NCBI GenBank assembly: GCA_020060545.1
Contig: JAGUZX010000111.1
Span: forward strand, 1 to 32,613
Direction of reading: 5' to 3'
DNA from: Desulfovibrio sp.
GTDB lineage: Bacteria > Bacillota > Dethiobacteria > DTU022
DNA length: 32,613 nt
Position 1 is the first letter of the stretch, and every line of letters starts with the position of its first letter. Below the pieces are notes generated by a model, which ran no database searches, had not been told where the DNA came from, and saw nothing but the letters and a program-made list of their open reading frames with translations. Made by a program: the position numbers and the translations under genes. Below are positions 3,658 through 11,406 of the stretch, one piece after another.

Positions 3658-3687
3658 TATTATTGCCATTATCTGTATACCTTAGAC
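3658..3687 (-). promoter_or_regulatory. Candidate sigma-F promoter for sigG-spoIIR
   Basis: On the minus strand, GTCTA (3683-3687) and GGCAATAATA (3658-3667) are 15 bases apart, close to the start of sigG. The -10 element fits the published sigma-F consensus GGNNANAHTR at every defined position; the -35 fits GYATA at 4 of 5. Both sigG and spoIIR belong to the sigma-F regulon in Bacillus, which supports the call. It was found by eye, without a score. Confidence 0.5.
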
Positions 3688-5224: not shown

Positions 5225-6298
5225 TTAGCGGCCTCCCGCTTCCTGCAGCCGCTCCTCACTGGCCGAGGCCGCAAGCTGGTCGACGATTTCATCCAGGTTT
5301 CCGGCCAGCACGAGGTCGAGCTTGTGCAGGGTCAGCCCGATCCGGTGATCGGTAACCCGGTTTTGCGGAAAGTTGTAGGTCCGGATCCGCTCACTGCGGT
5401 CGCCGCTGCCGACAAGAGATTTCCTGGCCTGAGCCAGCGCGGCCTCCTGCTCGGAAATGTATTTATCCATCAACCGGCTGCGCAGGACCCGCAACGCTTT
5501 ATCTTTATTTTTTAATTGTGACTTTTCATCCTGGCAGCTTACGACCAGCCCTGTCGGCAGGTGGGTAATCCGGACGGCGGACTGGGTCGTGTTTACGCTC
5601 TGCCCGCCGGGACCCGTGGCGCAAAAAGTATCGATGCGCAGATCCTGGGGGTTGATTTGGACATCAACCTCCTCCGCTTCCGGCAGCACCGCCACGGTGG
5701 CGGCGGAAGTATGGATCCGCCCGCCCGATTCCGTGGTGGGGATGCGCTGCACCCGGTGCACCCCGCTTTCAAACTTGAGGCGGCTGTAGGCCCCTTTTCC
5801 CGTTATGCCGACGATTACTTCCTTAAATCCGCCGATATCGGTAGGGTGAAGATCGACGATCTCCGTCTTCCAGCCCCGCTGCTCGGCATAACGGGTATAC
5901 ATCCTTAACAGGTCCGCCGCAAAAAGGGCCGCTTCTTCCCCGCCTGTGCCGGCCCTGATCTCGAGAAATACGTTTTTGGCGTCCCGGGGGTCCTGGGGCA
6001 GCAGCTGCTCTTTCAGTTTGGCTTCAAGTTCGTCTCTGGCGCGGGTGAGGGCGTTGATCTCCGCTTTGATCAATTCCGCCAGCTCCGCTTCGTTGTTTTC
6101 ATGCAGCATCTGCCGGGCATCGTTTAGCTCCCCGGTCAGGCGCTTGTAGCTCCGGAACAGCTCCACACAGGGGGAAAGATCGGCCAGCTCACGGGAATAC
6201 TGCTGCCATAACGCCCGCTGCGCCAGGATCTCCGGGTCGCTTAAGAGCAGTTCGAGTTCCCGGTACCGTTTTTCAAGCTGTTCCAGCCTCTCAAACAC
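5225..6298 (-). CDS. prfA: Peptide chain release factor 1
   Basis: RF1 recognises UAA and UAG stop codons and triggers peptide release. The 357-residue product is standard length. The catalytic GGQ (231-233) lies in [18 protein letters not shown], and the codon-recognition PxT-type tripeptide is PTT (187-189) in [14 protein letters not shown]. The C-terminal signature [15 protein letters not shown] is present. The start is a GTG at 6298 with GGAGG about 9 bases upstream, overlapping the end of yqhQ by 8 bases, which implies coupled translation in the rpmE-yqhQ-prfA-prmC unit. Confidence 0.97.
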
Positions 6299-7199
6299 CG
6301 GCGGTCACCTCCAGCTCCGGTCCGGTAGCATCAAAACCCGGATCCTCGACGCCGATGGCCGCCTTGAGGGCGCACAGGGCCACCTCGATTTGACCGTCAT
6401 CCGGCTCCCGGGTGGTCATTTTTTGCAGCCACAGCCCCGGGGCCGCTATCAGCCGCACCAGGGGCGAACGGTATTTGGCCGTCACCCGGATCGCCTCGTA
6501 AGAAAAACCAGCCACCAGGGGGAGCAGAAGCAGGCGGATTAAAATGCGCTGCGGCAAAGGAGGCCAGCCGAACAGGGAAAACAAAAGAATGCTGCACACC
6601 ATCACGATCAGGATGAAGCTGGTCCCGCAGCGGGGATGGAGAGTGGCGTAAGGCCTGATCCGCTCTATTTCCAGGGGTTCGCCGTTTTCGTAACCGAAAA
6701 TGACCTTGTGTTCGGCGCCGTGATACTCGAAAAAACGCCGCACATCGCCCCAGCGGGTAATCACAAAAAGATAGGACAGAAAAATCGTGAGTCTGATGGC
6801 CCCTTCGATCAAATTTTTAGCTGCGGCGGGCATGGGCGGCAGAAACTTGGCCAGGCATGTGGGCAGGACAAAGAAAAGCGCAATCCCCAGCCCAAGCCCC
6901 AGGAAAACCATTAAAAAAGTGTGCCACCCTTTCAGCTCTTCACCCTCCCCGGCCATAACCTCGGCCGCGGAGATATTCAGGGCCCGCACCCCGATCACGA
7001 AGGACTCAAAAAAAGCTACCGCCCCGCGCAGGATCGGCTTTCCCAGGAGGGGAAACCGCTTGCCTGCGGGTATAATCTTTTCACGGTAGAGGCCGATACT
7101 GCTGTCGCCGCGGCGGAAGGCGATCGCTATATTGTCCTGGCAGCGCATCATGACACCCTCCAGCACCGCCTGGCCGCCGATCCATTGTTGTTTTGCCAT
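6291..7199 (-). CDS. yqhQ: DUF1385 membrane protein, YqhQ family
   Basis: This 302-residue protein matches the DUF1385/YqhQ family, whose biochemical role I cannot state with confidence. The N-terminus [13 protein letters not shown] is the family hallmark. Other conserved blocks are [16 protein letters not shown] and [14 protein letters not shown], whose His, Glu and Cys residues suggest a metal site. Four or so hydrophobic segments are visible, two near residues 85-150 and two near 205-250, so it is an integral membrane protein. The ATG at 7199 is preceded by GGGAGGA. An in-frame extension runs upstream through rpmE but has no support. Its place between rpmE and prfA is common in Clostridia, which suggests a constitutively expressed protein. 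Confidence 0.88.
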
Positions 7200-7251
7200 G
7201 CGCGGCAAATCCTCCCGAAGATTAAAAAGAGCAGAGCATCCGCCCTGCTCT

Positions 7252-7452
7252 TTATTCCATCCCGTATTTGCGTTTAAATCGTTCCACGCGCCCACCGGTA
7301 TCGACAAATTTTTGCTTCCCCGTGAAAAAGGGATGGCACTTGGAACAGATCTCCACGCGCAAGTTTTCCACGGTCGATCCGGTTTCAAAGGATTGCCCGC
7401 AGGCGCAGGTTACCTTTGTCCGAAAGTAGCGGGGGTGAATTTTTTCTTTCAT
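7252..7452 (-). CDS. rpmE: 50S ribosomal protein L31 (zinc-binding type)
   Basis: The 66-residue protein starts [10 protein letters not shown] and carries all four zinc-binding cysteines: C16 and C18 in CACG, C36 and C39 in CSKCH. It is therefore the C+ form, which is usually replaced by a cysteine-less paralogue under zinc starvation. [23 protein letters not shown] is the typical C-terminal half. AAGGAGG lies about 10 bases before the start. It is the first gene of the rpmE-yqhQ-prfA-prmC unit and has a plausible promoter upstream. Confidence 0.97.
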
Positions 7453-7577: not shown

Positions 7578-7627
7578 GTAGGGGCGACGCCATGCGTCGC
7601 CCGCGGGCCAGGCATGCCTCGCTCCTA
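7578..7627. repeat. GTAGGGGCGA-type palindromic repeat abutting the murE stop
   Basis: The element begins GTAGGGGCGA and ends TCGCTCCTAC, near-perfect inverted ends. It contains a first hairpin with arms GGGCGACG and CGTCGCCC (7582-7602) and a second palindromic core AGGCATGCCT (7610-7619). Sequences of this style are dispersed repeats in many bacteria. Its right-hand end contains the murE stop codon, so it sits exactly at the 3' border of that gene. It could form a strong RNA hairpin, but no T-tract follows. Confidence 0.6.
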
Positions 7628-9157
7628 CTCGCTTCTCAAGGCAAGGTACTCTTCCACGGTTTGACGGTCGTTATAGGGTTCGGCTTTATCACCGACAAGC
7701 TGATATCCTTCGGCGCCTTTACCGGCCAGAAGGACCAGGTCCCCTGGGGCGGCCTGCGCCAGGGCATGGAAAACCGCGTTCCGGCGATCCGGGATCAGAT
7801 CCGGTTTCGAGCGCATCCCCTGCCTGATCTCGGCGCTAATCGCTGCCGCATCTTCACCGGCGGGGTTATCCGCCGTGAGAATAACCCGGTCGCTGTAGCG
7901 CTCCGCAATGCGCCCCATCAACGGGCGTTTTCCCCGGTCTCTCTCCCCCGGACAACCGAAAAGCGTAATCACGCGCCCGCGGGCCTTGAAGCGAAGCAGT
8001 TTCAGGACCTGCTCCAACCCGTCGGGGGTATGCGCATAATCGATGATCACGGTGTAACCGGACACCGTTTTGATTTCCTCGAACCGCCCCGGCACCCCCG
8101 CCAGGCCTTGCAAACCTCTTGCCACGGCTTCCGGCGGCAGCCGATCCAGCCAGGCTGCGGCGGCCGCCGCCAGGGCATTATAAACATTGAACAACCCGGG
8201 AAGCTGCAGTGATACCCGGATCGGTTTTTCCCACCCCAGGAGGTTGAAACTGTGCCTCCCCTCGGCCGAAACGGTTAGATTATCCGCCCGCACCGTAACC
8301 CTCCCGGCCCTGATCCCGTATGTCACCGGAGCAGGATCACCGGAAAGCACCGCCAGTTTCTCGTAATAGCTGTCGTCGGCGTTAAGCACGGCGCTTCTCC
8401 CGAACTTGTTTTTTGTAAGGCTAAAGAGCCTGGCTTTCGCCTCGAGGTAAGCCTGCATCGTGTGGTGATAGTCGAGGTGTTCTCTGGTCAGGTTGGTAAA
8501 AATAGCGCTGTCAAAAGCGCAGTGGGTGAGGCGGTGTTGGACCAGGGCATGCGAGGAAGCCTCCATCGCCACTACCGAAACCCCCTGTTGATGCATGAAA
8601 GCGAGGCTTTCCTGCACCTCCAAAGATTGCGGCGTCGTCAGGCCGAAACTGCGCTGCAGGCCGTCCAGCAGCAGGCCGTTGCTGCCCAGGATCGCGGCCC
8701 TGCAGCCCGACTCCTGGTAAATACTCCGCACAAAATAGGTGGTTGTGGTTTTGCCGTTTGTTCCGGTCACACCGATTAATTTCATCTTTGCGGCAGGGAA
8801 ACGGTAAAAGCAGGCTGACGCAGAAGACAGCGCGTACCTGGTGTCCGGCACCAGGATCAGGGGGACGCCTACCGCTACCGGGCGGGCGGCTACTACCGCC
8901 GCCGCACCCCGGCCGACGGCCTCACGGGCGTAATCATGGCCGTCAACCTTCTCGCCCGCCAGGCAAAAGAATAGGGTGCCGGGCGCAACCCCGCCGGAAT
9001 GATAAGCCAAACGCCGCACCGTAATTTTCTCCAGGGTATGCCGCAACTCCGGTTTGGCGACGGCTTCCAAAAGGGTCCAGGCGCACGCGCTTTCCGGCAA
9101 GGGTCCAATCGCCTGTCTCAATTGATGGGCCTGATTATCCCTTTCGCGTGCCTTCAT
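7625..9157 (-). CDS. murE: MurE-family UDP-MurNAc-tripeptide ligase with DNPA motif
   Basis: This 510-residue protein has the three MurE domains. The ATP loop is GVTGTNGKTTT (129-139). The substrate regions are TTPQSLEVQ and MEASSHALVQHRL. K241 in LEAKARLFS is the lysine that is carbamylated in the family, and IDYAHTPDGLE starts the C-terminal domain. The family adds the third amino acid of the peptidoglycan stem peptide in the cytoplasm. Residues 430-433 read DNPA. Enzymes that add meso-diaminopimelate carry DNPR, while the lysine-adding Staphylococcus aureus enzyme has DNPA, so the amino acid used is uncertain. GKGAE replaces the usual GKGHE. The gene stands outside a division cluster, 11 bases after a LysM/M23 peptidase gene, so it may be a second copy. 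The stop codon lies inside a palindromic repeat. Confidence 0.88.
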   Translation of the reverse strand: MKARERDNQAHQLRQAIGPLPESACAWTLLEAVAKPELRHTLEKITVRRLAYHSGGVAPGTLFFCLAGEKVDGHDYAREAVGRGAAAVVAARPVAVGVPLILVPDTRYALSSASACFYRFPAAKMKLIGVTGTNGKTTTTYFVRSIYQESGCRAAILGSNGLLLDGLQRSFGLTTPQSLEVQESLAFMHQQGVSVVAMEASSHALVQHRLTHCAFDSAIFTNLTREHLDYHHTMQAYLEAKARLFSLTKNKFGRSAVLNADDSYYEKLAVLSGDPAPVTYGIRAGRVTVRADNLTVSAEGRHSFNLLGWEKPIRVSLQLPGLFNVYNALAAAAAAWLDRLPPEAVARGLQGLAGVPGRFEEIKTVSGYTVIIDYAHTPDGLEQVLKLLRFKARGRVITLFGCPGERDRGKRPLMGRIAERYSDRVILTADNPAGEDAAAISAEIRQGMRSKPDLIPDRRNAVFHALAQAAPGDLVLLAGKGAEGYQLVGDKAEPYNDRQTVEEYLALRSE

Positions 9158-9168
9158 CTCAACTGGGC

Positions 9169-10050
9169 TTAATCCAGAAAATCAAGCGGGTTAAGCTTTA
9201 CCCCGTTCAAGAGGACTTCAAAGTGAAGGTGCGGCCCCGTGGTGTTCCCGGTAACCCCGATGGAGGCTAGCACCTGGCCGCGGGACACCTGCTGGCCCGC
9301 ACTTACGGCAAGCCCGCCGGCATGAGCGTAGCGGGTGGCATACCCTCCACCGTGATCCACCTCCACCATGAACCCATAGTCACCCAAGAACCCGGCATAG
9401 GTAACCTTCCCATCAGCCGCGGCATAAATCGGCGCGCCCAAAGGGGCGGCAATATCGATGCCGTAATGAAATAAACCGTTCCGCCAGCCGTACCCCGAGG
9501 TAAAAACGCCTCGCAGCGGCCAACTCAGGCTGATCTGCTGCCGTCTGCCGCGGTTGGGGACGCCGCCCGGCACGATTACCCGTTCGCCCCGGATCAGGTG
9601 GGGTTTACTGCCCAGATTGTTGGCGGCGATGATTACCTCTTCTTTTACCCCGTAAAGCTCGGCGATACTGGACACGGTATCGCCTTCCTGGACATCGTGA
9701 ACCGAGCCGACAGTGGTTAGTAATTCCAGTTTTTGTCCGGGGTAAATCAGGTGGGGATTGGTGATTCTATTCAACCGGACCAGGGTGGCAACATCGGTGT
9801 CGAAACGGGCGGCGATCGCAAAAAGGTAATCGCCGCGCTCAACAGTGTACTCCAGGAGCATGGGACGGGCTGACTGCCTGTGTTCGCTGATTAAAGCGGT
9901 ATATCCCAGAAGTTGCAGGTAATATCGGGGGACGCTCCCTTCCGCATCAACTTTTTCTTCCTGTTCCATGGCAGCAGCTTTTTCCGGGGCGCCGGCAAAG
10001 GCCAGGCTCAAAACCAGGGCAGCCGTTACTGCCTTTAAAAACCCTGACAT
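9169..10050 (-). CDS. Secreted LysM-M23 peptidase (peptidoglycan endopeptidase)
   Basis: The 293-residue product has a signal peptide (residues 1-27, ending near AGAPEKAAA), two LysM peptidoglycan-binding domains (about 68-111 and 117-161) and a C-terminal M23/LytM domain (about 190-288). Zinc ligands of the active form are present: H195 and D199 in HYGIDIA, H276 in HLHFE, plus H243 and H274. It is therefore probably an active endopeptidase outside the membrane rather than a degenerate activator. A good AAAGGAG site precedes the ATG. It lies between rho and the MurE-like ligase; a candidate sigma-G promoter upstream would make it a forespore cell-wall enzyme, but this is inference. Confidence 0.92.
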   Translation of the reverse strand: MSGFLKAVTAALVLSLAFAGAPEKAAAMEQEEKVDAEGSVPRYYLQLLGYTALISEHRQSARPMLLEYTVERGDYLFAIAARFDTDVATLVRLNRITNPHLIYPGQKLELLTTVGSVHDVQEGDTVSSIAELYGVKEEVIIAANNLGSKPHLIRGERVIVPGGVPNRGRRQQISLSWPLRGVFTSGYGWRNGLFHYGIDIAAPLGAPIYAAADGKVTYAGFLGDYGFMVEVDHGGGYATRYAHAGGLAVSAGQQVSRGQVLASIGVTGNTTGPHLHFEVLLNGVKLNPLDFLD

Positions 10051-10083: not shown

Positions 10084-10113
10084 TAGTCTGACATAAAAAA
10101 GGATAAAATATAC
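10084..10113 (-). promoter_or_regulatory. Candidate sigma-G promoter before the LysM-M23 gene
   Basis: On the minus strand, GTATA (10109-10113) and CAGACTA (10084-10090) are 18 bases apart. The sigma-G consensus is GHATR-18-CATNHTA, so only one base of the -10 differs. The overlapping TATAGT could instead be a sigma-A -10 box, but its -35 is poor. The call rests on an eye match only. Confidence 0.3.
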
Positions 10114-10158
10114 ATTTAGATCCGCCATGGAGGGGTTAAGCGGCCGGCCCAGAAAATC

Positions 10159-11406
10159 CTACAGGGTATGCATGTTGTTCAAAAAGTCCTCGTTATTTTT
10201 GGTCTGCCTTAGCTTATCCAACAGGATTTCCAGAAACTCGACGTTGGAAGTGGTCCCCATCGCCCTTCTGAGCGCCCACATCAGCTCAATCTTACGTTCA
10301 TCCAACAGCAGCTCTTCGCGGCGGGTCCCGGAACGGGAGATATCAATCGCCGGGAAAATCCGGCGTTCGGAGATGCGCCGGTCCAGGTGCAGTTCCATAT
10401 TGCCGGTGCCTTTAAACTCCTCGTAGATCACGTCGTCCATCCTGCTGCCGGTATCGATTAGCGATGTGGCGAGAATGGTAAGGCTGCCGCCTTCGTCGAT
10501 ATTGCGCGCCGCGCCAAAAAAACGCTTCGGCTTGTAAAACGCGGCGGGGTCGATGCCGCCGGAAAGAGTCCGCCCGCTGGGCGGGATTACCAGGTTATAC
10601 GCCCGGGCCAAACGCGTAATGCTGTCCAGCAAAATGGCCACATCGCGTCCCTGCTCCACCAACCTCTGGGCCCGCTCCAGGACCAGTTCGGAGATACGGA
10701 TATGATTCTCCGGTTTCTGGTCGAATGTCGAGCTGACCACATCGGCCTTGACGCTGCGCTCCATATCGGTAACCTCTTCCGGGCGCTCATCCACCAGCAA
10801 GATGATCAGTTCGACTTCGGGGTGGTTGGTGGAAATACTGTTGGCCAGCTGCTTCAAGAGAATTGTCTTGCCCGCTTTCGGAGGAGAAACGATCAGCCCC
10901 CGCTGGCCTTTGCCGATCGGGATTAAAAGGTCGATAATTCTTGTCGAAAGGATATGGGATGCGGTCTCCATGCGCAGCGCTTCCGTCGGGTGGACGGGGA
11001 TCAGTGAAGTAAAACTGGGACGGCGCGTAAACTTCTCGGGGTCGCCGCCATTGATCTCTTCCACCTGGAGCAAGGCATAGTAGCGCTCGTTGTCTTTGGG
11101 CGGCCTGATGCGGCCCGCCACCATATCCCCATTGCGCAGGTTGAAACGGCGAATCTGGGAAGCGGAGATATAGATATCGTCATCGGAATAATAGTACTTC
11201 TGGCGGCGTAAAAAACCAAAGCCGTCGGTCATGATCTCCAGGAGCCCGGAAGCCGTATGCTGCTCCTCTTCAGTGCTGCTGAATAGCTTTGTCAAAGTTT
11301 CGATAATCTCCGGCTTGCGCATGGTTGAATGACCTTTGATTTCGTGTTCCCGGGCCAAACGGTGCAGCTCGCTCAAGGTCATCGTTTTCAAACTTTCAAC
11401 ATCCAT
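10159..11406 (-). CDS. rho: Transcription termination factor Rho
   Basis: Rho is the hexameric RNA helicase that ends transcription at rho-dependent sites. The 415-residue protein has the N-terminal Rho domain ([29 protein letters not shown]), the cold-shock-like RNA-binding domain ([14 protein letters not shown], then [18 protein letters not shown]), the Walker A motif in [13 protein letters not shown], the Walker B region [16 protein letters not shown], and the Q-loop area [23 protein letters not shown]. No large insertion domain is present. AAAGGTGG precedes the ATG. The gene follows the cation exchanger by 18 bases. The rho then rpmE/prfA order is a long-standing Firmicute arrangement. 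Confidence 0.97.

Follow-up and report, generated by a model that had tools for sequence, protein, structure and literature searches.

A conserved second MurE-type ligase with a changed amino-acid pocket on a forespore-type operon in a member of the class Dethiobacteria

Bacillus sphaericus is a spore former with two stem-peptide ligases, lysine being found in the vegetative and germ walls and diaminopimelate in the cortex, and the logic of two third-residue specificities is already known from this species. The germ-cell wall is spared while the cortex is digested, and the muramic-lactam found in the cortex is the usual explanation. The arginine of the DNPR motif of MurE binds the second carboxylate of diaminopimelate; in the L-lysine-adding MurE of Staphylococcus aureus this residue is alanine, and the amine of lysine is bound by the equivalent Asp and Glu residues (PMC3829189). 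No account of a forespore MurE was recognised in the literature searched, in which subscription journals were thinly covered. In this study, a stretch of 32,613 nucleotides from Desulfovibrio sp. (GTDB lineage Bacteria; Bacillota; Dethiobacteria; DTU022; assembly GCA_020060545.1, contig JAGUZX010000111.1), hereafter the window, was analysed with respect to murE2, the gene of a second, old and conserved MurE-type ligase that has a changed amino-acid pocket and is encoded on a forespore-type operon.

The murE2 gene occupies positions 7625..9157 of the minus strand, with its ATG start at 9157 and its TAG stop at 7625, and its 510-residue product was characterised by profile scores, three Mur domains, a tree and an AlphaFold2 model. 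Residues 430-433 read DNPA in place of DNPR (7859..7870, minus strand; codons GAT AAC CCC GCC), and residues 479-483 read GKGAE in place of GKGHE (7709..7723, minus strand), with the Glu kept. With the murE model TIGR01085, MurE2 gives 472.5 bits (cut-off 257.3), and it contains all three Mur domains (PF01225, PF08245 and PF02875); DNPA therefore occupies a genuine MurE motif position. The codons and this score bear out the preliminary description of the window, which had noted both altered motifs in a MurE-family ligase. A chance tetrapeptide was ruled out as the source of DNPA, and among 80 MurE from named comparison loci the aligned fourth residue is always Arg (78 DNPR, one DNSR, one DDPR and no DNPA). 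The AlphaFold2 model (mean predicted local distance difference test score, pLDDT, 89.4) indicates an intact fold. The solved structure closest to this model is S. aureus MurE 4c13 (Z 45.2, root-mean-square deviation 2.1, 482 aligned), and Escherichia coli MurE 1e8c gives Z 43.5 (root-mean-square deviation 2.3, 473 aligned); so small a gap in Z between matches to a model says nothing about the substrate.

The distribution of MurE2 was examined using a search profile built from six orthologues. Six strong copies (798-886 bits) were found in the scan of the order (71 genomes), in which ordinary MurE scored 473-545 bits, one partial apart, and the scan of the class (97 genomes) yielded 15 further genomes from families f6 and f143 (568-631 bits). 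In total, 21 of the 97 class genomes carry MurE2 at 568 bits or more, and no copy above 600 bits was found outside the class in a phylum sample of 398 drawn genomes. Two fragments were kept outside these counts, namely, a MurE fragment of 100 residues that reads DNPV and adjoins FemAB (G017, L355) and a 51-residue murE2 start that follows an M23 peptidase gene at a contig end (G032, L374). The motif is DNPA in 22 of 24 MurE2 sequences, DNPG in one and DNPI in one; MurE1, the MurE of the division cluster, reads DNPR in 30/30 sequences of the class. MurE1 with DNPR co-occurs in 19 of the 21 MurE2 genomes (27 class genomes scanned, plus the family scan), the two exceptions being G001, whose MurE1 is divided between contig ends, the motif not being read, and G471, a fragmented assembly in which no MurE1 was found.

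Near-copies were thinned for the tree and the residue counts, which used 21 of the 24 MurE2 and 21 of the 30 MurE1. In the resulting 63-row tree, MurE2 forms one clade (21 rows, support 96/91), as do MurE1 (21 rows, 100/99) and a third MurE-like type (8 rows, 100/100), although some of the long-branch joins were flagged as unsafe. A recent duplication of MurE1 was ruled out as the origin of MurE2 by these separate clades across the class. The altered pocket of the preliminary description proved to be a feature of the whole clade: the DNPR Arg is replaced by Ala, Gly or Ile in 21/21 aligned MurE2 and is Arg in each of the 33 rows of MurE1 and references. A sharp separation of the two sets is seen in four columns only (G403 to P/R/A, R433 to A/G/I, I462 to V and F495 to Y). 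K136, K241, R406, D430, G479 and E483 are invariant across MurE1, MurE2 and the references, and N431 is so with the exception of one reference; the ATP site, the carbamoyl-lysine, the Asp, the Asn and the amine-binding Glu are thus retained in MurE2. D430, N431 and A433 of the window's protein align to D413, N414 and R416 of E. coli MurE. The Arg expected of a meso-diaminopimelate-adding enzyme is lost at residue 433, and the residues expected of a lysine-type pocket are present, that is, Ala at the fourth DNPx place together with D430 and E483. Because the Arg is lost and the amine-binding Asp and Glu are kept, as in S. aureus MurE, the pocket would be expected to fit a diamino acid without a second carboxylate. 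A change of this Arg to Ala with Asp430, Asn431 and Glu483 kept would favour L-lysine or L-ornithine as the most likely substrate, rather than meso-diaminopimelate. In an f6 sub-branch (L271, L272, L273 and L276), GKGRE stands in place of GKGHE, an Arg being gained near the pocket that lost the DNPR Arg.

In the window, murE2 lies 11 bp behind the gene of a 293-residue peptidase with two LysM domains and an M23 domain (9169..10050, minus strand), next to which the preliminary description had also placed it. The order in the window is a putative rho gene (10159..11406, minus strand), a conserved flank of the operon, followed by LysM/M23, murE2 and then DUF1385-prfA; the DUF1385 gene (6291..7388, minus strand) comes directly after M23 in some relatives without murE2. 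In all five relatives from f1, the window's family (43 genomes), and from f2 that have a full murE2, rho and M23 lie directly upstream; in two of the five, the genes as called overlap or lie 1 bp apart. Of the 43 f1 genomes, 11 have a full-length M23 orthologue and 10 have the sporulation marker SpoIVA; the orthologue is present in 10/10 SpoIVA-positive and 1/33 SpoIVA-negative genomes, and the single SpoIVA-negative carrier (G022) has sigG-like and spoIIR-like genes in its murE2 locus. Within f1, the M23 peptidase thus occurs only in spore formers.

A sigma-G-like element, TGTATA-N18-CAGACTA (10084..10114, minus strand), precedes the start of M23 by 64 nt, and its -35 and -10 boxes are conserved at fixed spacing. 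The candidate forespore promoter mentioned in the preliminary description holds in the sense that the element is conserved in 11 orthologues with upstream sequence: nine match TGWATA-N18-CANANTA in full, one at 10/11 and one at 9/11 (L378, which lacks the 5' end of M23, was omitted). The distance from the beginning of the element to the M23 start is 61-66 nt in ten orthologues and 77 nt in G036. Among 782 gene upstreams, a full 11/11 match occurs in five, each of which belongs to the M23 gene before murE2; this figure is partly circular since the pattern was drawn from the first orthologues. Three M23 upstreams not used to draw the pattern (L372, L374 and L375) are all full matches, and Markov shuffles gave a full match in 1/4400. 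The information per column is 1.69 bits in the boxes, 0.75 bits in the spacer and 0.40 bits in the surroundings. Mostly, the M23 element is without the GG of a sigma-F-like element located before sigG, and sigma-G is therefore preferred over sigma-F as its probable reader; the element of G036 fits the sigma-F pattern in full (15/15). The sigma-F-like element itself, GTCTA-N15-GGCAATAATA, lies at 3658-3687 of the window (minus strand) and is conserved in G000 (the source genome), G022 and G010.

The preliminary description had suggested looking in the division cluster for another murE, one that reads DNPR, and such a gene is present. The source genome (135 contigs, 95.5% complete) contains nine Mur_ligase_M matches, among them MurE1 with DNPRGED and GKGHE on contig 71, directly upstream of murF and downstream of an ftsI/spoVD-like gene. 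A third MurE-like protein, without DNPR and GKGHE, is encoded on contig 16 (L151:8516-10054) and scores 287 bits against TIGR01085; because of this third ligase, a scheme of two walls and two MurE is too simple for this genome. The third type (also L159 and L297-L313) occurs in most f1 genomes, is the sole MurE-like protein found in many and is what remains in most f1 genomes without MurE1. SpoIVA and MurE1 are both missing in 31/43 f1 genomes (31 of the 33 SpoIVA-negative genomes lack MurE1), and MurE1 is present in 10/10 SpoIVA-positive genomes. From this joint loss and the third type left over, MurE1 in f1 looks necessary for sporulation and not for growth, and the third type may supply the third residue of the vegetative wall. 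Six division and cell wall (dcw) clusters without SpoIVA in the genome were read directly (L158 G007, L162 G002, L163 G004, L164 G013, L165 G005 and L166 G027); no murE separates the ftsI/spoVD-like transpeptidase gene from murF, the loss being clean, and the transpeptidase has about 580 residues, versus about 700. The third type lies directly beside FemAB in L354 (G025). A member of similarity cluster c38, judged ATP-grasp-like only by eye, adjoins the third type in G476 (L300) and FemAB in G025; these neighbourhoods hint at cross-bridge chemistry. In the complete genome G371, which belongs to the same class, a MurE-like gene without a DNP motif (L274:7300-8811) directly follows a FemAB gene.

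FemAB, an enzyme that adds residues to a side-chain amine, is associated with MurE2 as well. It is the direct neighbour in 8/24 MurE2 loci and is present in 15/21 MurE2 genomes versus 6/76 others among the 97 class genomes. The f2 locus of G036 combines both settings, with the promoter and M23 before murE2 and FemAB after it.

From the sequence, clade, neighbourhood, promoter conservation and co-distribution with sporulation, we infer with moderate confidence that MurE2 adds a non-diaminopimelate third residue (lysine or ornithine) to precursors made in the forespore, which are probably destined for the germ-cell wall, and that the diaminopimelate stems come from MurE1. In f1, transcription of murE2 together with the LysM/M23 endopeptidase gene from the sigma-G-like promoter would place MurE2 activity in the forespore at a late stage of sporulation. 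The product of MurE2 would there become part of the stems of forespore-side peptidoglycan (the germ-cell wall), and the division-cluster MurE1 would supply diaminopimelate stems. Hydrolases specific for the third residue, perhaps the co-transcribed M23 enzyme among them, could distinguish a layer in which this residue is another.

Several results weigh against this reading, and part of them concern the substrate. MurE2 scores 472 bits with NF001126, the diaminopimelate ligase model, which is above its cut-off of 373; it lies just under the cut-off of NF001124 (475.6 versus 476 bits), under that of NF001123 (383.1 versus 586) and well under that of NF010628, the L-lysine-adding equivalog (332.5 versus 536). 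Automatic annotation labels MurE2-type enzymes diaminopimelate ligases, which is a warning. The score with NF001126 supports a different account, in which a forespore-dedicated MurE2 has kept diaminopimelate as its substrate (in meso, LL or amidated form), the altered pocket suits another isomer or other kinetics, and the gene does no more than secure the precursor supply of the forespore. Spore formers generally keep the diaminopimelate pathway, and G479, E483 and Asn431 are kept in MurE2; the residue that binds the second carboxylate is lost in all 21 MurE2, however, and the association with FemAB also speaks against this account, which we regard as unlikely. The likeness to the S. aureus enzyme drawn in the preliminary description stands as far as the shared DNPA is concerned and calls for caution as a guide to substrate, since the A409R variant of S. 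aureus MurE gained no diaminopimelate activity (PMC3829189), so that the DNPx motif alone does not set specificity.

The remaining results of this kind concern compartment and setting. The sigma-G consensus of Bacillus subtilis (TGAATA and CATACTA) does not by itself single out the site in the window: 11 of 790 upstreams, that of the window included, score at least 11/13. Three spore-forming genomes (G011, G026 and G029) have DUF1385 after M23 with no murE2 between them, and murE2 is therefore dispensable for sporulation. No promoter of the TGWATA-N18-CANANTA type was found at the murE2 loci of the sister family f6, where murE2 often occurs with proC, proB, proA and a NifV-type homocitrate synthase and lies tail to tail with FemAB (gene identities were taken from profiles on one representative locus and by similarity for the others). 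The FemAB counts ignore kinship, FemAB also occurs in f1 genomes without murE2, and in the source genome it adjoins a ddl-like gene on contig 63 and is not beside murE2. The f6 context of FemAB and amino-acid synthesis genes would suit a MurE2 that serves the vegetative wall (lysine or ornithine with a FemAB cross-bridge), with MurE1 serving the cortex, as in B. sphaericus; forespore expression in f1 would then extend the vegetative type into the germ-cell wall. The co-distribution of MurE1 with SpoIVA in f1 agrees with this arrangement. Nevertheless, we judge it improbable, as the vegetative role in f1 seems to belong to the third type and the sole promoter evidence for f1 murE2 is of the forespore type. 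It is very unlikely that MurE2 acts outside cell-wall synthesis and joins an amino acid to some other molecule of the spore: the Mur fold is reused in cyanophycin synthetase and pseudomurein ligases, and MurE2 shows weak similarity to the former, but it has a full-length MurE score, conserved MurE motifs, MurE as its closest structures and a LysM/M23 partner.

Lysine or ornithine addition in the forespore thus remains the reading we prefer. Its strongest form, which we put forward only tentatively, is a germ-cell wall with lysine or ornithine stems and no diaminopimelate, built by a sigma-G-controlled MurE2, in which the co-expressed M23 enzyme would tell the layers apart, thereby providing an encoded label for what is kept and what is digested. 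If true, spore wall layers would be marked in a second way, by a compartment-specific MurE, and this mark could be traced genetically.

Compared with meso-diaminopimelate-adding MurE (E. coli 1e8c and MurE1 of the class), MurE2 shares the fold, the ATP site, the carbamoyl-lysine and the equivalents of D413, N414 and E468, and differs in having Ala for the DNPR Arg (Arg416 in E. coli), GKGAE for GKGHE, and another operon and promoter. With the L-lysine-adding MurE of S. aureus (4c12/4c13) it shares DNPA and the lysine-amine-binding Asp and Glu, and this enzyme is its top structural match by Z, which is no proof of substrate; unlike it, MurE2 falls on a different branch by profile (NF010628), and the S. 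aureus enzyme has no sporulation link. Ureibacillus acetophenoni, a spore former of the B. sphaericus group, has two MurE, with DDPR and DNPR (L369 and L370). The arrangement in the window resembles that of B. sphaericus in having two third-residue specificities, if the proposed one for MurE2 is correct, in one spore former; it differs in that the non-DNPR enzyme is encoded on a sigma-G-like operon with M23, in another class and alongside a third MurE-like gene.
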